A stretch of DNA of 38,852 nt from a virus. Each line of letters opens with the position of its first letter. The first letter of the stretch is position 1. The stretch spans positions 1-38,852 of IMG/VR virus record IMGVR_UViG_3300037247_002053; one strand, given 5' to 3'. This document shows positions 1-36,535 of this stretch, one piece after another. The translations under genes and the position numbers were made by a program. Under the pieces are notes generated by a model, which saw nothing but the letters and a program-made list of their open reading frames with translations, searched no databases and was not told the DNA's origin.

Positions 1-1437
1 GTGATACTTCGTCAAAAATTCGTCGATGGACTCGCGGGACAGGGCCTCTCCGGGGTTGGCCTCGATCTCGTTCTCGTAGCCGGTCCCCAGTTTCGTGATG
101 TCGTTGAGAACCAGAAACTCGTCGACGCTAGACTTGAACACCCCGATGCGGAGCTTCTTGGCGCAGGCCCTGATCTTCGGCATCGCCTTTCTTGCGATCT
201 CGGCCCCCTGGCCCCCTCCCTTGATCTGCTGGGCAGCTTTAGACATCGCGCTTCGGGTGCGGGAGGCATCACCGTCTCCGCTGGCATTCCTGATGGGGTA
301 ATGGCGCAAGCTGCGCGGCTCGGTCTTGTCTCCGCTATCTTTCTTCCCGCCCGATTCAATGAACCCGAATGAGCTGTCAGGCAGACTGTCGATGAAAGTA
401 GCAGACCATACGGCCTTCTCGGCCCCATCTTCTGTCTGCTCAGCCTTCTCCGTCTCGGGGCTTCCGGCCTTCCCGGCCTCCTTGCCCTCCACTTTCTTGT
501 CCACGGGAATCTCCCCTGACTCAAGAATCTCGGTGGCGGTCGGAACGCCGTCCACCATCTTAACCAACTCGAAGCCGGAACCGGGGAGCGCCCCGGCGTC
601 AACCACGCTCAGCTCCGCCATGACCCACTCGCTGGTGACCCGGACCTTCTCCGGAATGTTCTTGATACCCTTGAGTGCACGCTTCGGAACCTCCAGGGAA
701 CTCTTGATCGCGGTCACGACCCGCGTCCCGCGGATCGAGAAATCACTGAGGGTACCGTCCTTGATCTTCGTCCAGGTGTCCTCCGCTCCCTTCGAGATCC
801 TGGCCGTGACCTTGATCTGCTTCTTCGTGTCCTCGAACTCAATGCCCACGCTCTTCCCGACGGCAAGGGGCTGGTGCATCTCCCGGACGTTCCCTTTCCA
901 GGCGCCGAAGGCCTTCTTCGAGCCCTCGTACTCCATGATCTCGCCTTGGGCATCCAGAACCTCAGCGGACGCGAGGCCCTCGATCAGCCTCTTCTCGTCG
1001 TCGACCTTCGTGATGCTGAAGTTCAGCCTCAGGTCAGAAGGGCCGACGCTTTCGGGTGTTACTTGAGATTTCGACACAGAAGCACACTCCTCGACGGACA
1101 GATTGATGCCCTCTTCCGTTATGTGCATCTCACCGTCCTGATATTTCAGCGCGACAGCTCCACACCTCTCACACTTACCGGCTCCAGCGAAAAGACCCGG
1201 ATCGTCGACAAGCGCCTTGAAAAGTGAGGAAAAAGTAATATAGTCAGCGCCGCTGAACAGATCCTCTAGAACTTTGCCAGCCGATCCCCTTACCGCCGAC
1301 CAGGCCGCAGCAGCGGCCCTTCCGTCGTCACTCGTCGACGCGAACACGCTATTGAAAACGGCCTTCCACTGCTTCTGCTTCTTGCGCGGAAGCTTGCGAA
1401 CGGCAGGGGGCAGATCACTCAGCCTCTCGTATGGCAC
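1..1437 (-). CDS. ChaB-domain / XkdF-type prohead protease (partial, C-terminus beyond window)
   Basis: Likely matures the capsid by cleaving scaffold and head proteins. 479 codons are visible and no stop is reached at the left edge. Residues 1-55 resemble a ChaB domain (VPYERLSDLPPAVRKLP, then helices). A CxxC pair lies at residues 89-92. Residues 135-240 resemble an XkdF/HK97-type serine protease, with a candidate His188 (REMHQP) and Ser234 (LSDFSIRG). The Lys/Glu-rich C-terminal part continues past the window. The GTG start at 1437 follows a GGGAGGGGGAGG-like site and overlaps the end of the portal gene by 23 bp in another frame, as expected for a portal-protease pair. The family is known from phages of Gram-positive bacteria; the catalytic residue assignment is inference. 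Confidence 0.85.
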   Translation of the reverse strand, partial: MPYERLSDLPPAVRKLPRKKQKQWKAVFNSVFASTSDDGRAAAAAWSAVRGSAGKVLEDLFSGADYITFSSLFKALVDDPGLFAGAGKCERCGAVALKYQDGEMHITEEGINLSVEECASVSKSQVTPESVGPSDLRLNFSITKVDDEKRLIEGLASAEVLDAQGEIMEYEGSKKAFGAWKGNVREMHQPLAVGKSVGIEFEDTKKQIKVTARISKGAEDTWTKIKDGTLSDFSIRGTRVVTAIKSSLEVPKRALKGIKNIPEKVRVTSEWVMAELSVVDAGALPGSGFELVKMVDGVPTATEILESGEIPVDKKVEGKEAGKAGSPETEKAEQTEDGAEKAVWSATFIDSLPDSSFGFIESGGKKDSGDKTEPRSLRHYPIRNASGDGDASRTRSAMSKAAQQIKGGGQGAEIARKAMPKIRACAKKLRIGVFKSSVDEFLVLNDITKLGTGYENEIEANPGEALSRESIDEFLTKYH

Positions 1438-3139
1438 GCCTCCCCCTCCCGGGCTTCAAGTTTTCCCGCACGGGGAACGCCGGATCTTTCGTCGTGATGG
1501 CTTTAGCCTCGGAGAAGACTTCCTTCACCTGCTCCTCGGTCCTCGCACCGTCAAGTTTCTCCCGGATGAACTCCTGCACCTCGTCCGGGATATAGACGGC
1601 CTTGAAGATCCTGGGCGACACAGACCTGCGGACGTCAGTCAATGCGACGAGACGCCACTGGCCAATCTCGTGCCGGTACATGAGCTTCTTCCTGAGACCA
1701 ATCTCCTCCGCGGTCTCGTCCGACGTAGGAAGAATGGAGGCCTCGATGATCCCACTGGGGGAAACTTCGTGGCCCAGTATCGAGGAGGCGCCGTCCTGGT
1801 TGATAAAGTCGACCTTGCCGTCCTTGATAGCACCGAGAACGTTAGGAGTCAAAAGAAGAATTCCGTTGGCAAGCTGGATATAGGGAGGGACGCCCAGGGG
1901 GGGTTTCCCTTCCGCCTTCCTAAGCTCATCGATCCCCGTAGCCCCGAGAGGAACCATCGCCTTGCTGCGACGGATGTTCATCTCCTCGTCCTCCCTCTTG
2001 GAGGACAGCCACTCAAACTTCAGCCCCTTCTCGCCGAACCTCTTCCGGATGATCCTCTCGGTGAAGACCTCGGCCAGGAACTTCTTCCTGGGGTTGAGGC
2101 CGATCTGTGTCTGCTGGGACTCGAGCACGGTTCCCTGTACCCTCGTGGATCTCGAGCGCATCAGGCCGTGGATCGAGACGCCGAAGATAGCAGCTATGAT
2201 GCGGGCCAGCCACTCGTCCACCGCGATGGTGAAGTCGTGGGGCTTCATCTCCTTCGGCTGCACCCCGCTGGGCACAAGCTTCATCTTGCTGCGAGCGGCA
2301 AGATCACCAGAGAGGTAGTCGTCGAGATATCTCTGCACCTCGATGATCGTCTCGAAGTTCCAGTCGGGGGGCGACACCAGCAGGTATTCGGGAACGTTCC
2401 CCTCTGTGTAGAAGTTCAGGCCCGCCAACTGGCGCTTCAAGGAAATATGAGCAGCCGTCAGAACCATCTCAACCGGGGACATGCCATACGAACTGTTCGG
2501 CATAGAGTTGTACGGGAAGTAGAGGAGCTCGTCCCGGGTGAAGGTCGTGAAGGGCATCCCCTTGACGACCTGCATGTAGGCAGGCAGGGGGGCCCTGGGC
2601 ACGAACCCGTTCTGGTCGATGATTGGTTTGATAGTCGACCCGTCGATCTGGGGAAGCCCGAACAGCCTCCCGGCCCTGTCGAGTTGGATCCAGAGCGCGG
2701 GGGCGTCCAGGACCAGCATGTCTTCAAGTATCGGGGAGAGCCACCTACTGAACGTCAGGTCGTTCCAGGGGTCCGGGTACCTGAAGAACTCCTTGATCCT
2801 CTTCCTGCGGGGCTCGAGCGCTTCGGCATCAAAGTCCGCCTCCACCACAATATCCCAGTCGAGACCCCGGATCTGGTCCTTCGACATCTGTATCGCGATC
2901 CTGACGAGGTCGCAATTCCTCGCCACGCTTCTCAGCAAACTGAAGGTAGAGGTTATCCCCTGGCGGGGCTGGATCCTGATGTTCTCCCCGTGGGCAAAGT
3001 CCCAGGACCTGGGCGGCCTCTTCTCGACCCTGGCCGCCACTCCCGCGTCCAGGGGGCCGATGAACTTCTCGACCTTGTCCTCCACGAAGGACCTGCGGGC
3101 GGCGCTATAGGCGTTCTTGATGCGAGAGAAAGCTGACAC
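1415..3139 (-). CDS. phage portal protein
   Basis: Forms the dodecameric ring at the capsid vertex through which DNA is packaged and ejected. 574 residues, within the usual portal range. Typical signatures are the N-terminal anti-CBASS-free portal body with LLRSVARNCDLVRIAIQMSK, the DMLVLDAPALWIQLD strand region, the LNFYTEGNVPEYLL segment and FGVSIHGLMRSRS. The last ~90 residues are less conserved and basic (PGRGRRAIREAE). The GTG start at 3139 follows TAGGAGA. The gene lies directly upstream of the protease gene. No frameshift is seen. Confidence is high from the overall pattern and context. Confidence 0.9.
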   Translation of the reverse strand: MSAFSRIKNAYSAARRSFVEDKVEKFIGPLDAGVAARVEKRPPRSWDFAHGENIRIQPRQGITSTFSLLRSVARNCDLVRIAIQMSKDQIRGLDWDIVVEADFDAEALEPRRKRIKEFFRYPDPWNDLTFSRWLSPILEDMLVLDAPALWIQLDRAGRLFGLPQIDGSTIKPIIDQNGFVPRAPLPAYMQVVKGMPFTTFTRDELLYFPYNSMPNSSYGMSPVEMVLTAAHISLKRQLAGLNFYTEGNVPEYLLVSPPDWNFETIIEVQRYLDDYLSGDLAARSKMKLVPSGVQPKEMKPHDFTIAVDEWLARIIAAIFGVSIHGLMRSRSTRVQGTVLESQQTQIGLNPRKKFLAEVFTERIIRKRFGEKGLKFEWLSSKREDEEMNIRRSKAMVPLGATGIDELRKAEGKPPLGVPPYIQLANGILLLTPNVLGAIKDGKVDFINQDGASSILGHEVSPSGIIEASILPTSDETAEEIGLRKKLMYRHEIGQWRLVALTDVRRSVSPRIFKAVYIPDEVQEFIREKLDGARTEEQVKEVFSEAKAITTKDPAFPVRENLKPGRGRRAIREAE

Positions 3140-3997: not shown

Positions 3998-4312
3998 CTA
4001 ACCAAACATTCTGTCGCCGACCACGATCGGGGACGATTTCGGACCCGGGGACTCGTCCTCGAGTAAATAAAGATCAGGAGGGGTCGTCTGCAGCAAGACG
4101 GGCTGTAGCGGATTGTCGAAGGTGTGAACACGCAACCAGATACTGCCTCCAAGCAAGACGCGGAGCCGTTCTCGCCAAGAAAGGGCCCACCTGGTGATCA
4201 CAACCCCTCCTGATATCTTGATAGCAGGGAGGTTTCTATACTGTGGCTGGTTTTTCGCGAACTCGACCTCGGCCCACATCTCACCAGGGACCACCGGTGA
4301 TACTGGTTTCAT
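3998..4312 (-). CDS. conserved phage hypothetical protein
   Basis: 104-residue protein with a pattern I associate with small conserved phage proteins: an N-terminal PVVPGEMWAEVEFAKNQPQYRNLP stretch broken by charged residues, then VVITRWALSWRERLR and GGSIWLRVHTFDNPLQPVLL. No catalytic motif is visible. The ATG at 4312 is preceded by GTGAGGAGGGAGACAG, a strong ribosome site. It is the first protein gene downstream of the tmRNA terminator on this strand. Confidence 0.75.
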   Translation of the reverse strand: MKPVSPVVPGEMWAEVEFAKNQPQYRNLPAIKISGGVVITRWALSWRERLRVLLGGSIWLRVHTFDNPLQPVLLQTTPPDLYLLEDESPGPKSSPIVVGDRMFG

Positions 4313-4334: not shown

Positions 4335-4371
4335 GAAAAAGTTGGGCGCCTTCTGTTGCCAGGTGGCGCCC
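4335..4371 (-). terminator. Rho-independent terminator after the tmRNA coding piece
   Basis: On the minus strand, GGGCGCC (4371-4365) and GGCGCCC (4350-4344) form a 7-bp GC stem around a 14-nt loop. It is followed by AAC and a run of five T (4340-4335 region). It lies just after the tmRNA coding piece and before the ribosome site of the next gene, so it probably ends the precursor tmRNA. Confidence 0.8.
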
Positions 4372-4568
4372 GGTACCCCGGACTCGCCGTTAGGCGACAG
4401 CCAAGGCAGGACCCAACATCGGATCACCGATGTCGAGCCACGACTTGACCTTCATCCATGCACCCTTCAGTAGAGTGGCATTTGTTCGTTTGCCCATTGG
4501 TAACGCGGACAGGCGCCGCGGCCTGCAGGGAGGCGAGGACGTGTCGCCGTCGATACCGTTTCGCCCCC
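4372..4568 (-). ncRNA. ssrA: tmRNA coding piece (5' half with tag reading frame)
   Basis: Starts at the acceptor 5' strand GGGGGCG (4568-4562), followed by AAACGGTATCGACGG. The resume site falls about 75 nt in (E. coli about 90). Further small hairpins lie before the terminator. The 3' limit is taken as the base of the terminator and may be shorter after processing. Confidence 0.85.
4390..4494 (-). other. tmRNA tag-coding region, two candidate frames
   Basis: Frame 1 starts at GCA (4493) and reads A-N-E-Q-M-P-L-Y, stop TGA at 4469-4467. Its opening resembles canonical ANDE tags, but its end lacks the usual hydrophobic AA. Frame 2 starts one base earlier at GGC (4494), opens G-K-R-T-N as in Firmicutes GKTN tags, and runs 34 codons to PALAVA and TAA at 4392-4390. 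Each stop sits in the loop of a 5-bp hairpin (CACTC/GGGTG and TCGCC/GGCGA), as in tmRNA helix P5. Which frame is used cannot be decided here. Confidence 0.6.
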
Positions 4569-4690
4569 ACCGGCGCACCCTCTGGCACTGCGGTTCTGCT
4601 CGTCCCGGAACCGCAACCCGACCATCATCTTAAGATGCCGTGTCCCAGCATCTTGGCGAGCTCGACCGGTTGACACACCAGATGGTGCGC
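4569..4690 (-). other. ssrA: tmRNA intervening segment joining acceptor and coding pieces
   Basis: 122 nt removed in mature two-piece tmRNA by analogy with known permuted genes. Its ends are complementary: GCGCACC directly after the CCA pairs with GGTGCGC near the mature 5' end. With the acceptor stem and the CCA/TGG pair this makes one helix of 18 positions with a single A-C mismatch. Such an extended acceptor helix is expected of a permuted precursor. Confidence 0.85.
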
Positions 4691-4774
4691 TGGTGGAGGC
4701 GCCGGGAGTCGAACCCGGGTCCGAACGACCACCACGCTCCCCGATACACAGGCTTCACCTACCTTCCAAGAAAC
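4691..4774 (-). ncRNA. ssrA: tmRNA acceptor piece (3' half with T-arm and CCA)
   Basis: Contains AAGCCTGTGTATCGGGGAG, then the TTCGGAC stretch, a 5-bp T-stem (CCGGG at 4718-4714, CCCGG at 4706-4702), T-loop 4713-4707, acceptor strand 4701-4695, discriminator A and an encoded CCA (4693-4691). It begins right after the stop of the YkgJ-like gene at 4775. The 5' end is approximate, because processing sites cannot be read from sequence. Confidence 0.88.
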
Positions 4775-5512
4775 TCAGTTCGATGCGACGAGAAAGGTCT
4801 CCTTTCCTCCCCAGTACTCCTTCAAGGAGTACCCCTCCCTAATCACCACCAGCGCCCCCCTAATATGGGTTGTGAGCGCGAACAGGTGGGTCTGCACCTC
4901 CAGTTGCTGGCACAGCTTCATAAGCTCCACAAAGAGGGGGACGTCCCTGTGCTCCACGGCGTCAAGATCCGCCTCCTCGGGCCACTCGCACATCGCCCCG
5001 CGCCCGTCGTCGATCCTGAGCATCTGCCACGCGCGGCCGAAGGGCCTCTTCGTTACCACGACCCTGGACACCCCGATCTGACACAGGCCATAGTTGATGA
5101 ACTTGATCGTGGGCTCGAAGGAGCAGGACAAGGGACGCACGGGGTAGATCCCGCAGCGGCCGTCGATCTTGTTCAGATTCCTGCAGTGGGGGTCCTTGTG
5201 ATCCTTCTGCTGATCAGAAAGGTACCAGAAGGGCCTGCCGTTGACCTCGATCCTCCTGTTTTCCAGCCTCTCGCCGGACACCGTGTCTATCATCTCCAGC
5301 GTCCTCCTGGCCCCGTGGAAGTAGTCGAGGGTGAAGTGGGGACAGCAGCCCCCGCACTTGTCGACGCACTCGAACCCGCGGAAGAAGCTGGATGACAGCC
5401 AGAGCTCGTCCGGCGGCACAAGGGTCCTTCCATCGACCGTGAACTCCTTCGTGGCGACTGCGCGGACGTAGGTCTCCAGGATCTTCTTCATCGAGTCAGG
5501 GTACGCGGGCAT
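4775..5512 (-). CDS. YkgJ-family cysteine-cluster protein
   Basis: 245 residues. It carries the family's metal-binding cysteine pattern: C49, C53, C56, C57 (FECVDKCGGCC), C110 (DPHC), C120 and C130 (RCGIYPVRPLSC). The YkgJ family is thought to bind zinc or iron; its biochemical role is not established. The ATG at 5512 was chosen over upstream in-frame codons because GTAGGAGGTGAG precedes it. The stop abuts the tmRNA acceptor piece, so the tmRNA precursor may be cotranscribed with this gene. Confidence 0.85.
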   Translation of the reverse strand: MPAYPDSMKKILETYVRAVATKEFTVDGRTLVPPDELWLSSSFFRGFECVDKCGGCCPHFTLDYFHGARRTLEMIDTVSGERLENRRIEVNGRPFWYLSDQQKDHKDPHCRNLNKIDGRCGIYPVRPLSCSFEPTIKFINYGLCQIGVSRVVVTKRPFGRAWQMLRIDDGRGAMCEWPEEADLDAVEHRDVPLFVELMKLCQQLEVQTHLFALTTHIRGALVVIREGYSLKEYWGGKETFLVASN

Positions 5513-5520
5513 CTCACCTC

Positions 5521-6015
5521 CTACTCGTCCTCCCTGAGCGCCGCGTGCAGATGCAGCGGTCTCCTTTCGACCTTCACGTAGTACCTCTGTCCCAGAAGGA
5601 CTTCGGCGCAGTCCGAGACCCTGACGACCTCGCCCTCCGTCAGATGGAGCAGCCTGAAGTCGACCCCCCTCAGTTTGTAGTGGGCCGACCCCTCCCTGTG
5701 CCTCCCGTCCGAGAAAGCGGTGACCATAGCCGGCCGGCCGGACACGTAGTAGAAGCACCTGTTCACCTGCCTCGCTATCTTGATGGACTCCTCCGACAGC
5801 ACCGACACGGCCCAGGGGTTCTTCACGACGGGCGGCGGTGCGGGCTCGTCGTCCATCAGACTCTGAAGGAGGGCAACCGGGGGATAGGTTGGTATAGAGA
5901 AGAACGGAGGCGGAAGAGGAAGAGGACGAGAGATCCGGATGGCCGCGGCCCCGATGGTTGAAAGAAAAACGAGCGACAAGACGACAAGCCAGGCCCTCCC
6001 TACTCTCACAATCAC
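5521..6015 (-). CDS. membrane-anchored M15-like (DD-peptidase fold) peptidase
   Basis: 164 residues. An N-terminal hydrophobic segment (about 9-26, LVVLSLVFLSTIGAAAI) suggests a signal anchor, followed by a Pro-rich linker (30-65). The C-terminal domain has HREGSAHYKLRGVDFRL and a final PLHLHAAL. These match the H-x6-D and late HxH pattern of small phage M15/hedgehog-type zinc peptidases, giving candidate ligands H112, D119 and H157. The likely role is cutting peptidoglycan cross-links at lysis or entry. The GTG start overlaps the terminase stop (GTGA). Function is inferred from the motif only. Confidence 0.6.
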   Translation of the reverse strand: MIVRVGRAWLVVLSLVFLSTIGAAAIRISRPLPLPPPFFSIPTYPPVALLQSLMDDEPAPPPVVKNPWAVSVLSEESIKIARQVNRCFYYVSGRPAMVTAFSDGRHREGSAHYKLRGVDFRLLHLTEGEVVRVSDCAEVLLGQRYYVKVERRPLHLHAALREDE

Positions 6016-7793
6016 ACCCCCAGTCCTTTCATATCGATCAGCCTCGGGCGCGTTTCTTTGGGCTTGGTGGCGGCGTAGGTCGGCGTCCCGTGGTCCTCCC
6101 TACAGGGGAAGCACTGACCGGTACCCGCGCCTATGCCATAGTAGTTCTCTCCGTCCGCCATGGTCTTACCGCAGTCCACACACATCGTAGCACCTTTGCT
6201 TGGAAGTGTCAACCGGTGAGCCTGGGCCGTCCTCCCAATCTCGGAGTAAGCCCTGATCCACTGGAGTGCGGTGTTCCTCTTCTCCGTGCTCAGGTAGCAC
6301 CCGGTCGCTATCACCGTCGCGAGGTCCTTCTTCTGACCGGAGGGGACCGTGATCTTGACCACTCCCGTGGCGTTGACCGAGAAGGAGAGGCTCTTCAACT
6401 GGGCGTTCGCGACATCGTTATCGAGAAGGTCGATCCCGTCAGACATGACGAGCGCCCTGGTCGTGGAGTACATCGCCTGCTTGGTGTTCGAGGTCGTCGT
6501 AACAAGATGGAACTCGACCCCAAACTCCCTCAGGGTCTGCCTAATAGGCTCAGCACAGAACTGGTCACCATAGACGCTCCTCATCCCGTAGGTCTTGAGC
6601 GTCCCCGCAATCTCTAGCAGGGTCTCCTTCATCTTGACAGGGTTCTTCTTGTGCCCCTGCCAGGACCTCAGGTGATCGAAGACCACCTTCCCGGCCGGGT
6701 CCTTGTGCAAGATGCAGAAAGCAAACTCGTCGGACTTGAAAGCCACATCCACTATCGCCATGTACTCGTGGTCCTTGTCCGGGAGCCTGTGCCGGACGCT
6801 CCGAGAGATGCAAAGATCGATCCTCTCGGAAGGAAACAGCGCGTTGGCGGCCTCCCAGAACTGTGCGGCAAACTCACGGTCGAAGTTCTCACTGTCTCTG
6901 AGGTACTCTGCGATGAGCCACTCCTCCTCTATGACCGGGCTCATCTCCCAGGAGGGGAGCTTCCAGAGAAAAGTATCGGGGAGGTCTTCCCTTCCGTTCC
7001 ACTCTTCCCAGACCACGCCCGCCTTGGCGAAGGGGGAGGAGATCTTGACAAGCTTGGCGTTCGGGAAGGTGGCCATCCCTCGCCTGACGGCGCGGATAAT
7101 CTCCTTCGCGGGGTTCTGCAGAGTCTCCTCGTCCCTCCAGACAGCGACCTCGTCAAGAATCGCACAGGGGATAGACCACCCCCTCAGTTGGCGAAAGATG
7201 CAGGGGAGGATGGCTATCGTGATCCTGTTGTCTAGCTCTATCTCCTCCCTCGTGACGTTCACGATCATCTGACTGAACGCGGGGGACGCGAGGATCTTGT
7301 CCTTGATGTAGGTGTGTACGACGCTGGCCTGCTTCTTGTCGACGGCTATGACGGGGATGTAGCCGCGCTCGCCGCGGGACAGCCTGTGCTTCCTCAGCGT
7401 CGCCTCGTAGATCGCGATGTTCGACGCGAACTTGTCGGACTTGCCGCTCCTCGCCCCGGGGTAGATCCCCGCCTCGAGGTACTCCTTGGGCCTGTACGAC
7501 GACCTGGTTGTCGCCCTCTTGTAGAGCTGCAGGGGGGTCTCGGTGATCCTCCGGAAGAACGGGGCCTTGCCGGTCGTGTAGCAGTACCTGCAAGCGGCGC
7601 CCCTCAGCCGCCCCGAGCCCTTGCAGCGCCTACAGGTCTCCATCCTGAGGACCCGGGTCGTGATCTTCTCGACCGGCAGGGGGAGGCCGTAGAGCGTCCT
7701 GAGTGCCACCTCCTGCTGGGGGCTTATTTCGTCGCCGATAAGCAGCGGGTCCCTTATGGCACTGATGATGTCGACGACGGGCGTCTCCGTCAT
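6012..7793 (-). CDS. terL: terminase large subunit
   Basis: ATP-driven DNA-packaging motor and headful or cos nuclease, docking on the portal. 593 residues. Walker A is at 112-119 (PGARSGKS), Walker B at 210-215 (AILDEVA), a coupling SSP near 252-254, and candidate RNase-H-like nuclease acids are D349 (IVDVAFKSDEF), D410 (YGDQF) and D490. Two features are unusual: an N-terminal zinc finger of DnaJ type (C54, C57, C68, C71; CRRCKGSGRLRGAACRYC) before the ATPase, and a C-terminal zinc ribbon (C538, C541, C561, C564). The ATG overlaps the upstream stop (ATGA), with AGGAA just before it. Confidence 0.92.
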   Translation of the reverse strand: MTETPVVDIISAIRDPLLIGDEISPQQEVALRTLYGLPLPVEKITTRVLRMETCRRCKGSGRLRGAACRYCYTTGKAPFFRRITETPLQLYKRATTRSSYRPKEYLEAGIYPGARSGKSDKFASNIAIYEATLRKHRLSRGERGYIPVIAVDKKQASVVHTYIKDKILASPAFSQMIVNVTREEIELDNRITIAILPCIFRQLRGWSIPCAILDEVAVWRDEETLQNPAKEIIRAVRRGMATFPNAKLVKISSPFAKAGVVWEEWNGREDLPDTFLWKLPSWEMSPVIEEEWLIAEYLRDSENFDREFAAQFWEAANALFPSERIDLCISRSVRHRLPDKDHEYMAIVDVAFKSDEFAFCILHKDPAGKVVFDHLRSWQGHKKNPVKMKETLLEIAGTLKTYGMRSVYGDQFCAEPIRQTLREFGVEFHLVTTTSNTKQAMYSTTRALVMSDGIDLLDNDVANAQLKSLSFSVNATGVVKITVPSGQKKDLATVIATGCYLSTEKRNTALQWIRAYSEIGRTAQAHRLTLPSKGATMCVDCGKTMADGENYYGIGAGTGQCFPCREDHGTPTYAATKPKETRPRLIDMKGLGV

Positions 7794-8242: not shown

Positions 8243-8749
8243 TCAGGGGTTCCCTCCGCCGAAGTAGTCCTTGATCAGGACGGGGTCGGCCAGGGTCCCG
8301 AGTATCCAGTTGTGGATGATCTTCCCCGTCCTCCCGTTCCCGTCCACGAAAGGGTGTATCCGCTGGAACTCGAGGTAAAATTTATCAGCAGAATTCCTTG
8401 TGTTAGCGCATCTCTCGGCCGCTGGGTCCTGACGAAAATTCCTGAAGAGTTCGTCAATGAGCTGCGGCACCTCGAGAAAGGACGGAGCTACATGGCCCCC
8501 GACCCTGACCCCGCACCTCCTGAATCCGCGGATGTTTCTTCTTTCAATCATTTCGCCGATGCGCAAGAGATGGTCCTTGTCAAGCTTCTCCCCCTGGTTC
8601 AGCAAGGCGTAGCTCCACGCCTCTATCATCCACCCGACGCGGACAAGGCCCTTTCTCTCCCCCAGGCTGAATCCTTGCCTGACGACCTCCTCCTGGATGA
8701 ACTTCAGTATCGCCGGGACGTCCGCGGTGAGCTTGCCCTCGAACCTCAT
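8243..8749 (-). CDS. Fic-domain protein
   Basis: 168 residues. The Fic active-site loop is at 132-143, HPFVDGNGRTGK, matching HPFx(D/E)GNGRxxR except that the last Arg is Lys. Fic enzymes transfer AMP or other nucleotide moieties to target hydroxyls, using the motif His as base. The preceding helices (GLVRVGWMIEAWSYAL, HLLRIGEMIERRN) fit the Fic core. No clear inhibitory (S/T)xxxE(G/N) helix is seen. The ATG at 8749 is preceded by GGGAGGAGGGAAAG, and the preceding gene's stop overlaps it. A host-modifying or self-limiting toxin role is speculative. Confidence 0.85.
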   Translation of the reverse strand: MRFEGKLTADVPAILKFIQEEVVRQGFSLGERKGLVRVGWMIEAWSYALLNQGEKLDKDHLLRIGEMIERRNIRGFRRCGVRVGGHVAPSFLEVPQLIDELFRNFRQDPAAERCANTRNSADKFYLEFQRIHPFVDGNGRTGKIIHNWILGTLADPVLIKDYFGGGNP

Positions 8750-8919
8750 CTTTCCCTCCTCCCCTGGTACATGACCCCGAGCCTCAGGTAGAGCTCGATG
8801 TGCCTGCAGGGGCTCTTGTCCGACGCCCCCTCCCTGCAGTGGCAGCAGTTCCCCTCGCTCTCGCACCAGCAGGGGTCGCCCTTGCTCATCCAGCACATGC
8901 ACCGGCACTTCTTTTCCAT
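8746..8919 (-). CDS. small cysteine-rich protein
   Basis: 57 residues with ten cysteines (MEKKCRCMCWMSKGD, PCWCESEGNCCHC, SPCRH) and a C-terminal helix ending YQGRRER. The cysteine spacing suggests metal binding. The ATG at 8919 has AGAAGG upstream; the TGA overlaps the Fic start (ATGA), implying translational coupling with Fic. Function unknown. Confidence 0.7.
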   Translation of the reverse strand: MEKKCRCMCWMSKGDPCWCESEGNCCHCREGASDKSPCRHIELYLRLGVMYQGRRER

Positions 8920-17577: not shown

Positions 17578-17823
17578 GACGGCCGGCGAGCGGACACCTC
17601 CGCCGCGGAGGAGAAGATGAGATACCGGGACATCAGAGTCGGGATGGTACTAAAGCTGAAGAAGGAGCGGCAAGAGGCCTACGGGACGGACTCCGACAGG
17701 GACGGCCGGCGAGCGGACACCTCCGCCGCGGAGGAGAAGATGAGATACCGGGACATCAGAGTCGGGATGGTACTAAAGCTGAAGAAGGAGCGGCAAGAGG
17801 CCTACGGGACGGACTCCGACAGG
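17578..17823 (+). repeat. perfect 123-bp tandem duplication
   Basis: 17578-17700 and 17701-17823 appear identical base for base. Each unit contains the ribosome site GAGGAGAAG, an ATG and the first 28 codons of the 62-residue ancestral gene. 123 is a multiple of three, so the frame stays open through both copies. Confidence 0.95.
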
Positions 17824-17928
17824 GTCGAGGTGACGGACATCAGGCCGAGGCCCGGCTACAGAATCCCCTGGATCTTCAGCGGGGCCGAGGCCTACAAGCC
17901 GCAGGACTTCGAGAAAGCCCTGGACTAA
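17617..17928 (+). CDS. hypothetical protein with duplicated N-terminal half
   Basis: 103 residues from the first ATG. Residues 1-28 (MRYRDIRVGMVLKLKKER, AYGTDSDR) recur at 42-69. The original gene is probably the 62-residue form from ATG 17740, which keeps the same ribosome site. The domain resembles small phage proteins with an RYRDIxVGM start and a later VxDIRPR. Both starts could be used, giving 103- and 62-residue forms. Confidence 0.75.
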   Translation: MRYRDIRVGMVLKLKKERQEAYGTDSDRDGRRADTSAAEEKMRYRDIRVGMVLKLKKERQEAYGTDSDRVEVTDIRPRPGYRIPWIFSGAEAYKPQDFEKALD

Positions 17929-25375: not shown

Positions 25376-25609
25376 GTGAACGGACAAACGACAACGGCAG
25401 ACCTTACCACGCAGCAGGTCGCGGACAGCATCGGCGTCCACAAGGAGACCCTGCTAAAGTGGGTCCGAGGGGGCGAGATCCCGGAGCCCCGGAAGGTCCA
25501 GGTGGGCCGCATAGCGAACCGCCTCTGGGGCGAGGCCGACGTGCGCCGCGCCCGCGAGCACAGGGAGAGAAACTACCGGAGGAAGAACAGGGAGGGGAGC
25601 GGGGGATGA
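25376..25609 (+). CDS. MerR-like helix-turn-helix DNA-binding protein
   Basis: 77 residues: LTTQQVADSIGVHKETLLKW, GGEIPEPRKVQVG, LWGEADVRRAREHRERNY. This is the small MerR/excisionase-type winged HTH. It has its own consensus promoter and heads a subunit with a homing endonuclease, HerA ATPase, methyltransferase and serine recombinase. It could be a regulator or recombination directionality factor. GTG start. Confidence 0.75.
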   Translation: MNGQTTTADLTTQQVADSIGVHKETLLKWVRGGEIPEPRKVQVGRIANRLWGEADVRRAREHRERNYRRKNREGSGG

Positions 25610-26370
25610 GAAGGGTCCACATATACGCGCTCCACTCTACCGCCGAGCCGGGCGTCTACCGGTACGTGGGGAAGACTTGTGATTTAGCCAAAAGATTGAA
25701 AGAACATCTTGGAACCAGCTTCAACCATAACAAAGGTCTGAAAAACTGGATAGCAAATACGAAAAGCATCCTTGGTCAAAAGCTTTTATGCAAAGTTCTA
25801 AAGAAAACCGACAAGGATCATTGGCAAAAGTGGGAAAAATACTGGATCAAAAAACTTAGACAAGGAGGGCACCCGTTACTAAATTTGCACGAAGGAGGGA
25901 CGGGTGGAGACGCTGGGTGGAAGCACGGCCCCGGGGCAAAGAAAAGAAGTTCAGAGGCAAGCCTGCGATTCTGGAACAATCCCGACAATAAGGCAAGAAT
26001 GAGAACTGTCAAAAAGCGCCTCTGGGAAAACTCAGCCTTCAGAGCCAAGATGATATCCAGCTATATAAGAGCCCAGAATGATCCGGCCCTGAAGAAAAAG
26101 ATGAGTATTATCAAGAAACGTCTTTGGGCAAATCCGGTACATAGAAGAAAAATAATCTCCGGTATAATACGTGCCGGAGATGATCCTGCCGTTCGGGCCA
26201 GAAGATCTGCGGCCATGAAGCGCGTCTCAGCCAATCCCACTGTTCGGGCCAGAAGGCTAGTTGTCTGGAAGCTCCTCAACGCTGATCCGGATTTCACTAC
26301 CAAAAGACTGGCCGCCTGCAGACGCGCTTGGGCTAAGAAGCGCGCTCGCAGGGAAGAGAACAGGATATGA
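25606..26370 (+). CDS. GIY-YIG homing endonuclease with DNA-binding repeats
   Basis: 254 residues. N-terminal GIY-YIG domain: VHIYALHSTAEPGVYRYVGK, then LAKRLKEHL. C-terminal half has about seven copies of an N-P-x-x-R-x-K module roughly 18-20 residues apart (NNPDNKARM, NDPALKKKM, ANPVHRRKI, DDPAVRARR, ANPTVRARR), as in NUMOD-type binding arms. From about 25675 the DNA turns clearly AT-rich, unlike its neighbours, pointing to recent transfer. ATGA overlaps at both ends; no intron is evident. Confidence 0.8.
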   Translation: MRRVHIYALHSTAEPGVYRYVGKTCDLAKRLKEHLGTSFNHNKGLKNWIANTKSILGQKLLCKVLKKTDKDHWQKWEKYWIKKLRQGGHPLLNLHEGGTGGDAGWKHGPGAKKRSSEASLRFWNNPDNKARMRTVKKRLWENSAFRAKMISSYIRAQNDPALKKKMSIIKKRLWANPVHRRKIISGIIRAGDDPAVRARRSAAMKRVSANPTVRARRLVVWKLLNADPDFTTKRLAACRRAWAKKRARREENRI

Positions 26371-27410
26371 ACAAACTTCGACTCGGCATCGACCCCGAAG
26401 GACGTCCAGTCGAATTGCCGGCGGACAAGATATGGGAAAAAATTGCTGTGGTTGGGATCAGCGGCGCCGGCAAGTCCTACGCCGCCGGCGTGCTGGTCGA
26501 GCAGATGCTGAAGGCCGACAAGGCGGTCTCGGTGATCGATCCCGTGGGGATCTGGTACGGGCTGCGCTCGGGCGCCGACGGCCGGGCCGAGGGGGGTATC
26601 CCCATAGCCGTCTACGGCGGCATGCACGGCGACTGCCCGGTCCTGCCCGACCCCGAGGAGATCGCCATGAGGTTCGCGCTCTACGGGGAGTCCAACGTCA
26701 TCGACGTGTCGGAGGTCAACATGGAGGAGATGCACGACTGGGTGGGGGCATACGCGGAGGCACTCATGTCGCCCGGGATCGTCCCCTTCGAGCCGTGCCA
26801 CGTGGTGCTCGAGGAGGCGCCCGTGCTGGTCCCGCAATCAGGCAGCTATTCTAAGAATCAACGAAGATGTAAAGCGGCACTGGCCCACCTGTGGCGCGTG
26901 GGGCGGAACAGGGGGTACGGCGGGACGGTGATCGCGCAGCGCGCGGCCGCGGTGGACAAGAACCTCCTGACGCAGTGCGGGTCGCTGCTACTGATGCGCC
27001 TCGCCGCGATGATCGACCGCCGGGCCATCACGGAGTGGATCGCGAACAACGCCGCGAACGCGGAGAGGTACATGGAGATGATCCCGAGCCTCTCGGAGCT
27101 TCCCAACGGGGTGGGGTGGCTGTGGTCCCCGGCCTGGGCCGAGACGTTCACGAAGGTGAAGGTATCGAGTCGGGAGACCTACCACCCGGGCCCGATGGCG
27201 AAGGGTTTCGTGATGATGGAGATGGACGTCGAGGCCCCGGGGAAGAAGCCAAAGGCCGGCCCCTTCCTCCCCGGGGCCCGGAAGGCGATCCGCAGGGCGA
27301 TCCTGTGGGCCGTCGGAATCGGGTTCGCGGTCCTCCTGGTAGCGGCGATGGGAATATCGGTAGCGTTGTCGGCCCTCTCGGGGGCGTCGGGGGGAGGGAT
27401 AAGAAAATGA
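26367..27410 (+). CDS. HerA/DUF87-like P-loop ATPase with C-terminal membrane helix
   Basis: 347 residues. Walker A at 30-37 (GISGAGKS), Walker B near 147-152 (CHVVLEEAPV), and RVGRNRGYGGTVIAQRAAAVDKN, a typical HerA/VirD4-like sensor and arginine region. C-terminal hydrophobic helix about 315-340 (LWAVGIGFAVLLVAAMGI). Family members pump or translocate DNA; the role in phages is unknown. No NurA partner is seen nearby. A short AT-rich patch at about 26833-26877 interrupts otherwise GC-rich codons. Confidence 0.8.
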   Translation: MNKLRLGIDPEGRPVELPADKIWEKIAVVGISGAGKSYAAGVLVEQMLKADKAVSVIDPVGIWYGLRSGADGRAEGGIPIAVYGGMHGDCPVLPDPEEIAMRFALYGESNVIDVSEVNMEEMHDWVGAYAEALMSPGIVPFEPCHVVLEEAPVLVPQSGSYSKNQRRCKAALAHLWRVGRNRGYGGTVIAQRAAAVDKNLLTQCGSLLLMRLAAMIDRRAITEWIANNAANAERYMEMIPSLSELPNGVGWLWSPAWAETFTKVKVSSRETYHPGPMAKGFVMMEMDVEAPGKKPKAGPFLPGARKAIRRAILWAVGIGFAVLLVAAMGISVALSALSGASGGGIRK

Positions 27411-27634: not shown

Positions 27635-28236
27635 TGGGCTGGTCCTGGAAGAAGATGACGGAGGCGGTGCCCGAGGGAAGACACGGCACCGCGGAGGTGA
27701 AGCACTTCGACATCTCGGACGCCGAGTCGAGGATGAGCACCATCCGCGGCGGACTGTCCTACGTGCAGCCGGGGAGATACGCGAAGCTACTGGTGGACGG
27801 ACAGATCGTGATGAGCGACACCCGGATGGAAAAGGTGTTCAGCGGTGAAGTGGTAGACAAGGCCCACGGGTCCGTCCTCGTCGCCGGGCTGGGACTAGGT
27901 ATGGTCATCTTCCCGATTCTCGAGAAGAAAGAAGTCAAGATGGTCACGGTGGTGGAGCTAAACTACGACGTGATAAAGCTGGTCAAGCCACGCGTCAAGT
28001 CTCCGAAGCTGCGGATAATCCATAGCGACATCGCGGTCTGGCTACCGCCCAAAGGAGAGAAGTACAACACCATCTTCTTCGACATCTGGCCCACGATCTG
28101 CCAGGACAACCTCCAAGAGGTGGCGATCCTGCACCAGGCCTTCAAGAACCGGCTGGACAGAAGCGACCCCGAGTGCTGGATGGGCTCCTGGTGCGCGCAC
28201 TACCTTAGGGGTCAGAGAAGGAAGGAGAAAAGATGA
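27634..28236 (+). CDS. spermidine-synthase-like SAM-dependent methyltransferase
   Basis: 200 residues from GTG. Class I motif at 81-90 (VLVAGLGLGM), acidic residue ending strand 2 (VTVVELNYDVI), then IIHSDIAVW and TIFFDIWPT. The DIWP segment resembles the spermidine synthase and related small-molecule methyltransferase group. Substrate unknown. Ribosome site GAGGGGGAGGAGGTA; start shares a base with the preceding TAG. Confidence 0.75.
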   Translation: MGWSWKKMTEAVPEGRHGTAEVKHFDISDAESRMSTIRGGLSYVQPGRYAKLLVDGQIVMSDTRMEKVFSGEVVDKAHGSVLVAGLGLGMVIFPILEKKEVKMVTVVELNYDVIKLVKPRVKSPKLRIIHSDIAVWLPPKGEKYNTIFFDIWPTICQDNLQEVAILHQAFKNRLDRSDPECWMGSWCAHYLRGQRRKEKR

Positions 28237-28919
28237 AGGCCGTCGGCTACACCCGGGTCTCGACGAAGGACCAGGCGGACGAGGGCATCAGCCTCGACGC
28301 GCAGGCCGAGCGCATCCGGCACTACTGCCAGGCGAAGGGGCTCGAGCTGCTCCACATCTACTCCGACCAGAAGTCGGGCAGGGTGGCGCTGAACCGACCG
28401 GGGTTCCAGGAGATGCTGGAGGACCTGAGGGAGAAGAGGGCGGAGGCCGTCGTCTTCTTCAAGCTGGACCGGATGTTCCGATCGATGAAGGACGGCATCC
28501 AGACGTTCGAGGACTTCCAGAAGGCGGGGGTCGCGGTGCACGACATCACGAACGCGATGGACACGAGCACGGCGAACGGGAAGCTCTTCTTCCACATCGT
28601 ACTGGTCGTGGCGAGCTGGGAGAGCGACCTGCGCTCCGAGAGGGCGAGGGAGGCGGTGAGGTACCTGAAGAAGCACGGCAGGAAGTACGCGCACAGGCCC
28701 TTCGGGTACGCCGCGGTCCTGAACGGCGACGGAAAGTTCAACCTCGTGCCGGACGAGAAGGAACAGGCCATCATCCTCAGCATCCGGGAACTCAGGAAGT
28801 ACATGACCTACCAGGCGATAGCTGACAGGTTCAATGCGGAGGGCGTGAGAGGGCCGAGGGGAGGCAGATGGCACTCCACTTCCGTGCGAAACATTTTCCT
28901 GAGGGAGAAAGAATGCTAG
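28233..28919 (+). CDS. serine recombinase (resolvase/invertase type)
   Basis: 228 residues. Catalytic Ser10 in GYTRVSTKDQ; KLDRMFRSMKDG and VASWESDLRSERAREAVRYL follow in the catalytic domain. The C-terminus (YQAIADRFNAEGVRGPRGG, WHSTSVRNIF) is a short recombinase-domain/HTH. It is much shorter than large serine integrases, so inversion, resolution or short-arm integration are all possible. Ribosome site AGAAGGAAGGAGAAAAG. Confidence 0.85.
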   Translation: MKAVGYTRVSTKDQADEGISLDAQAERIRHYCQAKGLELLHIYSDQKSGRVALNRPGFQEMLEDLREKRAEAVVFFKLDRMFRSMKDGIQTFEDFQKAGVAVHDITNAMDTSTANGKLFFHIVLVVASWESDLRSERAREAVRYLKKHGRKYAHRPFGYAAVLNGDGKFNLVPDEKEQAIILSIRELRKYMTYQAIADRFNAEGVRGPRGGRWHSTSVRNIFLREKEC

Positions 28920-33563: not shown

Positions 33564-34661
33564 TCATCGTATGATCGGCATCAGACAGTACTGCCAGCTC
33601 CCCGACTCGAACAGCGCGCCGGCATTGGGGCCTGACATGGTGATCCTTATAGCGCCCTCGACCGATCCGACGAAGTCCAGGAGCATGTCGACGTTGAAGA
33701 ACAGCTCGACGGAGGGCTCGTCCGACTCGTACTCTAGCGGAACGGTCTCGGAGGACTCACCGACCTCCGAACTCCTGGAGGACAAGACGAGCCCCTCCTT
33801 CGTGAACGACAGCTTGACCTCCCTAGTGTGCTCGTCGCAAACCACCGCCGCGGTCCTGAGGGCGACCAGGAACTTCGAAGCATCGACAAACACTTTGTGA
33901 GTAGCTTTGGTCTCCATCACCGGGGCCCAGGTGGGGAAGTTCCCGGCCAGCTTCGTGACCCCCACGTAGGTGTCGCCGGCGACGAAGTAGATCTTGCCTG
34001 CCTCTTCACCCAGAAGAATGCTGTCTCCCTTGAGCTGGGAGACCACGGGCAGGGCCCGGGAAGGGATGAAGACCGAGAACTCTGCGCCCCCTTCGCGCGA
34101 AGCCCTATAGACGGACATCCTTCTCGAGTCGGTAGAAACCATCAGAAATCCCTCGAATGTCTCCTCCAGCTTGGCCCCGTCCATGATGAACTTGCCTCCC
34201 ATCTCGGTGTCAAAGAGAAAGCCGGTCCTGGCGACCATCGCCCGAAACTCCTCCATGGGATAAGCCCGCAGGTTCACCGGAGGGTCAGGGAGCTTCGGGA
34301 ACATGCTGACGTCCACGGTGTTCAGCCTGCACACCATCCCAGAGTCTCCCTTGAGAAACGCCCGGTTGCCGTCCTGCTTGAGCCTCACCCTGCCCCCCGA
34401 CATCGTACGGAGAAGGGGAAGCAGGTGCTTGGCGGGGAGACAGATCTCCCCGAGGTCCCTGACATCGACCTCCACCGCCGTCCCCATCTCGATGGTCAGG
34501 TCGGTCCCGAAGATCGAGAGCCTGCCCTCTCCTGCCTCCGTCTTGTAGGTGCGCATCAGTACGCACCCCAGCACCGGGATGCTGGCCTTCTTCTCGCACG
34601 CCTTCTCGACGAGTGCCACCCTTTCCGCAATCGTGTTCGCGTCCGCGACGAATTTTATCAT
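33564..34661 (-). CDS. dnaN: DNA polymerase III sliding clamp (beta subunit)
   Basis: 365 residues, normal clamp length, three clamp domains: IKFVADANTIAERVALVEKA, SIPVLGCVLMRT, FGTDLTIEM; a middle GFLMVSTDSRRMSVYRAS; and a C-terminal YESDEPSVELFFNVDMLLDF ending YCLMPIIR. Holds the polymerase on DNA. A phage-encoded clamp with no polymerase gene in the window suggests that a host polymerase is recruited or the polymerase gene lies outside the window. Confidence 0.95.
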   Translation of the reverse strand: MIKFVADANTIAERVALVEKACEKKASIPVLGCVLMRTYKTEAGEGRLSIFGTDLTIEMGTAVEVDVRDLGEICLPAKHLLPLLRTMSGGRVRLKQDGNRAFLKGDSGMVCRLNTVDVSMFPKLPDPPVNLRAYPMEEFRAMVARTGFLFDTEMGGKFIMDGAKLEETFEGFLMVSTDSRRMSVYRASREGGAEFSVFIPSRALPVVSQLKGDSILLGEEAGKIYFVAGDTYVGVTKLAGNFPTWAPVMETKATHKVFVDASKFLVALRTAAVVCDEHTREVKLSFTKEGLVLSSRSSEVGESSETVPLEYESDEPSVELFFNVDMLLDFVGSVEGAIRITMSGPNAGALFESGSWQYCLMPIIR

Positions 34662-36535
34662 ACGTCTCCCCTCGATGAAGGTCCCTGCCCGGCCACGGCA
34701 ACCTCGTAGAAGGCCGCCTGCTCACCGACCATCGTCAGCTTCTGCACGGCGCCCGCCTCCCCGACGTGCCTGCTCTTCTTGAACTTGACCCACGTTTCGG
34801 TCTCCAGGGTCGTGGAATCGCTCTCCGTGACGTTCTTCTTTATCGCCCGGTGCAACCAGATCACGTGGTCCGCGTCGGCCTCGAACGCCTGGGTGCCGAG
34901 TATGTCGGAGAGCTCACCCTCCTGGTACCGCTCCCTGCCCGTGCCCGGCTTCCGGGACGCGGTCACGACCCAGATCCTGATCGAAAGCTCCCTGGCGAGG
35001 TTCTTGATGCGCTGCATCGCGTTCGCCTGGACCTGGTAGAGGTTCTTGTGCTCGGACCTGGCTATGAACCCGAGATTGTCGATAACCAGGTCGGTGATAC
35101 CCAGGTGCCTGATCGCGTCCTCGCAAAGATCAAGCACGTCCTTGATCTTCGTCTTGCTAGTGTCGTACCCCACGTACAGGTTGACGTTCTCAAGCCTGTC
35201 CATCGCTTCTTGCATGTTCTCTTTCGTTAGGTAAAGCCTGTGGGACCTGGTGATGTAGGCGACGGCCATCCTGGCAAGCTCCGAGGGGCTCTGCTCCGCG
35301 GAGTATATCGCCGGCACCTTCCCGTCACCGTGACACGCATTGTGAATCATGCCGTTCAGGAGAAAGGTGGACTTCCCCGTCCCCGTGTAGGTCGCGCACA
35401 CCGTGATGACGTGGCCGGGGAGAATCGCGGCCATCTTATCCACATTCGCCCAGGGCCACCTAAACCTAAGGGGATCATCCATGACCGGCGTATCAGACAA
35501 CGAAGCTATCGAGGCGCAGAGCTGCTCGAACCCCGGGACGGTGGGGTCTTGCAGCCCTTCCTCGAGAAGCTTCTCAAGATTGTCGGAAAACCCTTCCGGG
35601 TCCTTCAGGTAGAACTCGTTCGCGTCCTTCGCACCGGGCCAGGTGAGAACCTTCCCCATGCCCAACTCGATGCCGAGCTTGTTCATCGCCCTCACGCCCG
35701 ACCTGTCCGTATCGCCTGCATAGATCAGCCTGCACCCCGACCTGACCAGAACGTCCCTCTCTTGCGCCGTGGGAGGGGAGCTGTCCGAGTGAAGGGAGAC
35801 GGCCTGCCTGCCGGACTGCCGGAAGATGATCGCGTCGAATTCTCCCGACACGACGAACAGGTCCTCGAACTCACTAAGCCCGAGGTTCTCTCCGAAGTAC
35901 ATCCGGGCCCTCTTGCCGGTCGAATGCCTGTACTGCTTGTGGCGAACGTCCCTCCACTTGACACAGGAGACCTTGCGGTTATCCATGTAGGGGATTCCGA
36001 CAAAGGAGCACTCCCTGTGCTCGTCGTCCGTGCCCAGAAAAAACCGCCCGTCCATGTACCCCAGCAGGGACGCCTTCGCCTGCCCCAGGCTGATGCCCCG
36101 CCGCTCCAGGAAGGCGACGGCCTCGGGGTTTTCCAGGAGGGCGGCGTGCAGCCCCCTCCAGTCCTCGAGGGGCATCAACTCTGACTCCTCCTGAGAAAAC
36201 TGGTTCCCGAAGGCCTTCTCGACGGGCCTCCTCCCCTTCTCCCACGAGACCCTCTCTATCTCCTGCACCTTCCTGACCGCGGCCGGGAACTCGCACCCCT
36301 CTACCGCCATCACCACGGCGAAGATATCCCCCTTCCACTCGCAGCCGAAGCAGGACGCGACCTTGTCCCCGGGCTTCCACTTGAGCGAGGGCGTCTTCTC
36401 CTGGTGGGACACGCACAGGGCCGTGTACCATCCGCTTGCCTTCCTCACGGGGCGATACAGCGACACCACGTCGTGGAGGGTCACCTTCTCCTTCAGGTCG
36501 TCCACGATCGCCCTACTCTTTAGTTCCTTCTCCAC
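34658..36535 (-). CDS. bifunctional primase-helicase
   Basis: 625 residues. N-terminal CHC2 zinc finger (C41, H44, C62, C65: CVSHQEKTPS, SCFGCEWKGD). TOPRIM primase in the middle (LFVVSGEFDAII, IYAGDTDRSGVRA). C-terminal DnaB/Twinkle-type RecA fold with Walker A (ATYTGTGKST), SAEQSPSELARM and IRIWVVTASRKPGTG. It both unwinds and primes, as in T7 gp4. GTG start after AGGAGAAAG, overlapping the initiator gene by 23 bp; stop overlaps the dnaN start. Confidence 0.92.
   Translation of the reverse strand: MEKELKSRAIVDDLKEKVTLHDVVSLYRPVRKASGWYTALCVSHQEKTPSLKWKPGDKVASCFGCEWKGDIFAVVMAVEGCEFPAAVRKVQEIERVSWEKGRRPVEKAFGNQFSQEESELMPLEDWRGLHAALLENPEAVAFLERRGISLGQAKASLLGYMDGRFFLGTDDEHRECSFVGIPYMDNRKVSCVKWRDVRHKQYRHSTGKRARMYFGENLGLSEFEDLFVVSGEFDAIIFRQSGRQAVSLHSDSSPPTAQERDVLVRSGCRLIYAGDTDRSGVRAMNKLGIELGMGKVLTWPGAKDANEFYLKDPEGFSDNLEKLLEEGLQDPTVPGFEQLCASIASLSDTPVMDDPLRFRWPWANVDKMAAILPGHVITVCATYTGTGKSTFLLNGMIHNACHGDGKVPAIYSAEQSPSELARMAVAYITRSHRLYLTKENMQEAMDRLENVNLYVGYDTSKTKIKDVLDLCEDAIRHLGITDLVIDNLGFIARSEHKNLYQVQANAMQRIKNLARELSIRIWVVTASRKPGTGRERYQEGELSDILGTQAFEADADHVIWLHRAIKKNVTESDSTTLETETWVKFKKSRHVGEAGAVQKLTMVGEQAAFYEVAVAGQGPSSRGDV

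Follow-up and report, generated by a model that had tools for sequence, protein, structure and literature searches.

Two-piece tmRNAs are already known from phages. A survey from 2022 (PMC9004378) covered 402 phages with 133 unique tmRNA structures. The two-piece form made up 53 of these, 50 of which came from marine or aquatic phages. Sequences from bacteriophages number 79 in the 2025 tmRNA database (PMC11915505). The Methylophilales phage Melnitz and other phages carry a permuted ssrA with a tag-coding frame in two pieces; in Melnitz, a marine myophage, this ssrA is associated with a riboswitch and located beside a transcription coactivator, together with tRNAs (PMC9004378). Mycobacteriophage DS6A also carries a tmRNA-derived RNA, which consists of a tRNA-like domain without a tag frame; molecules of this type inhibit tmRNA (PMC11915505, PMC4131195). 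Among bacteria, the permuted tmRNA of Alphaproteobacteria (RF01849; merged model RF04321, PMC11915505) has the same piece order, tRNA-like domain, P2 and tail (ACCUGGCAACAGAA) as the gene described below. In addition, pattern scans of IMG/VR yielded about 40 distinct permuted forms, several of them in loci with genes for a phage-type polymerase, primase-helicase, integrase or tail/lysis protein (judged from one large ORF each); these checks covered part of the contigs, and a few of the loci could be bacterial or prophage sequence.

The locus studied here lies in a 38,852-base IMG/VR virus record, the whole of which was analysed as one window. It is a permuted two-piece tmRNA gene and very probably a working phage ssrA, and extends as a complete gene from approximately 4786 to 4336 on the minus strand. 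Unlike the ssrA of Melnitz, it is located between terminase and portal genes in a 39-kb record and has a tag of 29 residues; no riboswitch reached the Rfam gathering score in the record (cmscan). In contrast to the RNA of DS6A, its coding piece is complete, and it differs from the alphaproteobacterial form in its longer tag and in a full RF01849 model score below the cut-off. The novelty implied by the original prediction is thus reduced by the 2022 survey (PMC9004378), and the distinctive traits of this gene are its long tag and its unusual genomic place.

Read along the minus strand, an acceptor piece ending with CCA at 4691 is followed by 122 nt and then by a coding piece starting with GGGGGCG at 4568, where GGGGGCGAAACGGTATCGACGG begins. 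The proposed tail-to-head order, for which no strand had been given, is therefore real and belongs to the minus strand, and the ends expected near 4691 and 4568 fall exactly on the CCA and on the GGGGGCG start. The gene extends slightly beyond the predicted range (4372-4774) on both sides, with the acceptor piece starting perhaps from about 4786 and the U-tract ending at 4336. Covariance models for permuted tmRNAs, the check that accompanied the prediction, agreed with the assignment. In Rfam (cmscan), tmRNA_permuted (RF04321) aligned over its full model length at 4753-4433(-) with 70.4 bits (E 9.9e-12) against a gathering score of 47, and the score rose to 74.0 bits when the search was restricted to 601 bases. 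The viral permuted tmRNAs that were scored span 62-131 bits, which puts this locus among those with the weakest matches. The RF01849 model was not passed, as the tail alone aligned (19 bits vs 50), and the locus was filed under the general permuted form and not under the alphaproteobacterial family.

ARAGORN also called a permuted tmRNA, at 4786-4299(-). Its permuted mode also responded wrongly to genes that are standard or cut (L154, L166, L176; L043), and we therefore rejected ARAGORN as sole proof and sought evidence not dependent on it. A complete standard tmRNA, the finding that would have contradicted the permuted arrangement, is not present at the locus: RF00023 scored 42.6 bits on the acceptor half, below its cut-off of 47, and its 5' part runs into a protein gene. 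Since ARAGORN miscalled permuted forms next to standard genes elsewhere (L154, L166, L176), a chance resemblance, or the acceptor half of a standard tmRNA, might be suspected here as well. This is extremely improbable given Rfam E-values between 1e-11 and 2e-14 for the locus, the presence of both halves, the conserved registers, the tail motif and, upstream, a protein gene with no standard 5' half. The locus combines the permuted order of pieces, a covariance match above the gathering score, alanine identity, P2, a tag frame and a phage-borne position.

The acceptor piece (4691-4786, minus strand) is the tRNA-like 3' half and was delimited with ARAGORN, RF04321, the sequence itself and cofolding; its 5' end is uncertain between 4786 and 4753. 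It comprises the 5' strand of P2 (4753-4722), a T-arm (CCGGG-TTCGACT-CCCGG) and, at its 3' end, the acceptor strand CGCCTCC followed by A and the encoded CCA. Pairing of GGGGGCG with CGCCTCC yields an acceptor stem with G3-U70, the signal for alanine. A two-strand fold formed the acceptor stem, P2 and the T-arm at -63 kcal/mol. The P2 strands alone were only modestly better than shuffled sequences (137 of 5000 shuffles were as good), and the predicted P2 helix hence rests mainly on the RF04321 alignment.

The intervening segment (122 nt, 4569-4690, minus strand) is predicted from its fold and from register comparison to be removed from the precursor. Its closing stem, GCGCACC/GGTGCGC, starts directly after the CCA and leaves 4 nt between its end and GGGGG (0/4 register), and the fold of the segment has a z-score of -3.0. 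The same 0/4 register, with differing stem sequences, was found in most of the approximately 40 distinct viral permuted tmRNAs compared; some registers were shifted by 1 or 2 on both sides and a few RNAs had no clear stem. The base pairs of RF04321 cover the tRNA-like domain alone, and both this stem and the tail hairpin lie outside them (PMC11915505). The stem in 0/4 register, the resume context and the tail hairpin are features that the locus has in common with the IMG/VR viral forms (L003-L012, L117, L131-L147, L197-L201 and others).

The coding, mRNA-like piece (4340-4568, minus strand; RF04321, cofold and comparison with relatives) consists of the GGGGGCG acceptor strand, a D-loop-like GGTATCGAC, the 3' strand of P2 (4550-4519), the tag frame and a terminal hairpin. 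A candidate PK1 stem (CGCGG...CCGCG) is located near 4520-4504. The terminal hairpin GGGCGCC-ACCTGGCAACAGAA-GGCGCCC (4344-4371, minus strand) carries the conserved tmRNA tail motif, as indicated by the RF01849 consensus, the relatives and a fold z-score of -5.1. Its loop region is identical to the RF01849 tail consensus over 14 nt and close to the tails of other viral permuted tmRNAs; an early impression of a beta-type tail was dropped, since the RF01849 consensus fits better. Three bases after the hairpin, a T-run (4336-4340, minus strand) may, judging by its sequence, act as an intrinsic terminator. A consensus scanner flagged no terminator at this T-run and no promoter-like site on the minus strand.

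The tag frame, predicted by ARAGORN and by comparison with relatives, occupies 4390-4479 (minus strand) including the stop codon TAA and would encode ATLLKGAWMKVKSWLDIGDPMLGPALAVA, a peptide of 29 residues. The resume codon GCC at 4479 is preceded by GGGCAAACGAACAAAT; this context, CAAA-N6-AAT directly before GCC, agrees with a CAAA...AAAT/AAAC box found ahead of the resume codon in many relatives. The stop codon (4392-4390) lies 35 nt before AACAGAA, a distance of 25-49 nt in the viral relatives in which that motif was found. A few codons upstream, the frame GCA AAC GAA CAA ATG CCA CTC TAC TGA (ANEQMPLY and stop) begins with Ala-Asn-Glu like ordinary tags, and a real RNA might in principle use it. 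However, this peptide is without a degron-like end, the Rfam alignment and the viral relatives place the CAAA box upstream of a resume codon that corresponds to the later GCC, and it is the TAA of the 29-residue frame whose spacing to the tail hairpin is the conserved one. We consider the upstream frame very unlikely.

With 29 residues, the tag is roughly two to three times as long as usual. Most relatives have tags of 9-15 residues, as do most of the IMG/VR viral forms, in which L132 and L135 reach 26, and most viral and bacterial tags compared have 8-17. The commonest tag length is 10 (PMC11915505). Long tags recur among the viral copies, with 26 residues in L132:3900-4329(-), L135:5550-5979(+) and L122:8935-9190(+) and 33 in L046:2041-2457(-). 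The tag of our locus ends with ALAVA, a terminal Val-Ala where Ala-Ala is usual. ClpXP recognition depends most on Ala-Ala-COO-, and KM rises when the penultimate Ala is changed (PMC7652416); a tag that ends with Val-Ala may therefore signal to ClpXP more weakly.

Four other viral permuted tmRNAs (L011:6804-7295(-), L117:4398-4842(+), L201:2949-3369(+) and L080:494-927(+)) have tags that end with AAAGR and not with Ala-Ala, namely ATTKPRAMAAAAGR, AETEKPRAFAAAAGR, AETKPLAMAAAAGR and AKTNTLAMGAAAGR; a gene for a phage DNA polymerase is also present in three of the four loci. Capped with Gly-Arg, these tags could give a blunted ClpXP signal.

A genuine permuted tmRNA might carry, in its lengthened ALAVA tag, something other than a normal degradation signal. 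Tagged proteins would then be degraded less or differently, and the phage RNA would compete with the host tmRNA and free ribosomes without feeding the host proteases. The contrast of 29 residues with the 9-15 of most relatives and the four AAAGR tags point in this direction, whereas the end of the tag is still small, hydrophobic and alanine-rich, its length falls inside the published range of 8-35 residues (PMC8012679), and other long viral tags end with AA (PMAA in L132 and L135, AAAA in L122). On balance this reading is unlikely. The wider proposal that some phage tmRNA tags were changed (lengthened, or capped as ...AAAGR or ...ALAVA) for rescue without ClpXP targeting, with this RNA as one such case, appears less probable still.

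The terminase large subunit (6012-7793, minus strand; phrog_9 and tblastn to terL) and the portal protein (1415-3139, minus strand; PF04860, 55.8 bits; phrog_2662) flank the tmRNA gene on the same strand, and the gene is therefore phage-borne and located inside the packaging and morphogenesis block, as the original prediction had it. The upstream gene encodes a protein with a CxxCxxCC zinc/iron-chelating domain (4775-5758, minus strand; PF03692, 29.4 bits; phrog_16018), the stop of which ends at 4775, inside the stretch where the acceptor piece may have its 5' end. Downstream, a small ORF (3998-4312, minus strand) follows about 24 nt past the T-run. The record further encodes a primase-helicase (34658-36535), a DNA clamp (33564-34661), an SSB and a RuvC-like nuclease, and the tmRNA locus is the sole tRNA-like gene found in it by ARAGORN. 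The record also has a gene for a serine recombinase (28233-28919). Since ssrA is often a phage integration site and has been discussed as a source of phage copies (PMC9004378), the gene might be a host ssrA that was acquired by recombination or imprecise excision and is now decaying without benefit to the phage; the recombinase and the low bit score relative to other viral copies would fit. Yet every part is intact (the two acceptor strands, P2, the stem of the intervening segment, an open tag and the tail hairpin), the stems still pair despite the difference from all viral relatives found, and the gene stands mid-operon, with terminase and portal on either side and no integrase next to it. 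A decaying passenger is accordingly improbable.

Several other proteins of the record were noted. A small HD-domain protein (PF13328, 21136-21561, plus strand) resembles (p)ppGpp hydrolases and is possibly a phage alarmone hydrolase, and a Fic/Doc-family protein (PF02661) is encoded at 8243-8908 (minus strand). A HerA/DUF87-type ATPase (26367-27410, plus strand) has a hydrophobic C-terminal stretch in this small phage and is weakly terminase-like (phrog_2666). The GIY-YIG nuclease at 25459-26370 (plus strand) has repeated C-terminal motifs and is homing-endonuclease-like. Lastly, the ORF at 17617-17928 (plus strand) contains a near-exact internal duplication, with MRYRDIRVGMVLKLKKERQEAYGTDSDR present twice.

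Searches of IMG/VR by terminase or portal found no relatives of the phage, and the whole acceptor-plus-5'-end pattern had no match in bacterial genomes. An exact copy of the 33-nt acceptor end was found in 49 bacterial contigs, among them Myxococcota, Desulfobacterota and Bacillota; as nearly all of these carry standard genes by ARAGORN, it was rejected as a host marker. When plasmids were searched with an approximate query for the alphaproteobacterial tmRNA, nothing was found, and this negative carries no weight. Among the matches listed, the portal is nearest to Brevundimonas phages (33%), the clamp to a Rhizobium phage (27%) and the terminase to a Synechococcus phage (26%), and the SSB matches P1-like phages and many others. 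The alpha-type tail and the portal and clamp matches weakly favour an alphaproteobacterial host, against which stand the cyanophage match of the terminase and the RF01849 score below the cut-off; the host is unproven.

Ordinary trans-translation with host factors, by an RNA cut from a phage transcript, is the best-supported account of this gene. The sequence and its comparison with relatives support the piece order, acceptor identity, P2, intervening-segment stem, resume context, stop and tail position and phage context on which it builds. A phage transcript running from terminase through the tmRNA to portal, or starting nearer, would fold so as to bring the two ends of the tRNA-like domain together. 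The 122-nt segment would be cut out by host RNase P and 3'-processing enzymes, and the acceptor RNA and the coding RNA would remain joined via the P2 helix. The molecule would be charged by host AlaRS via G3-U70. A search of the record, which may itself be a fragment, for SmpB (PF01668) was negative, in line with the prediction. The phage would therefore depend on host SmpB, which would, late in infection, carry the tmRNA to ribosomes that have stalled on broken messages. The ribosome would resume at GCC, add the 29-residue tag and terminate at TAA. That the gene is transcribed and its RNA processed, that host SmpB is used, that tagged proteins are degraded and that the phage benefits is inferred. 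The simplest reading is an aid to the host SmpB pathway in late-infection ribosome rescue; the earlier suggestion that the phage RNA outlasts or overrides the host system is a guess. This two-piece tmRNA gene adds, to the set of phages that bring their own ribosome-rescue RNA, a member that has few sequenced relatives and carries the gene at a late-operon locus. It also raises a question that can be tested across many phages, namely whether unusual tags are still degradation signals.
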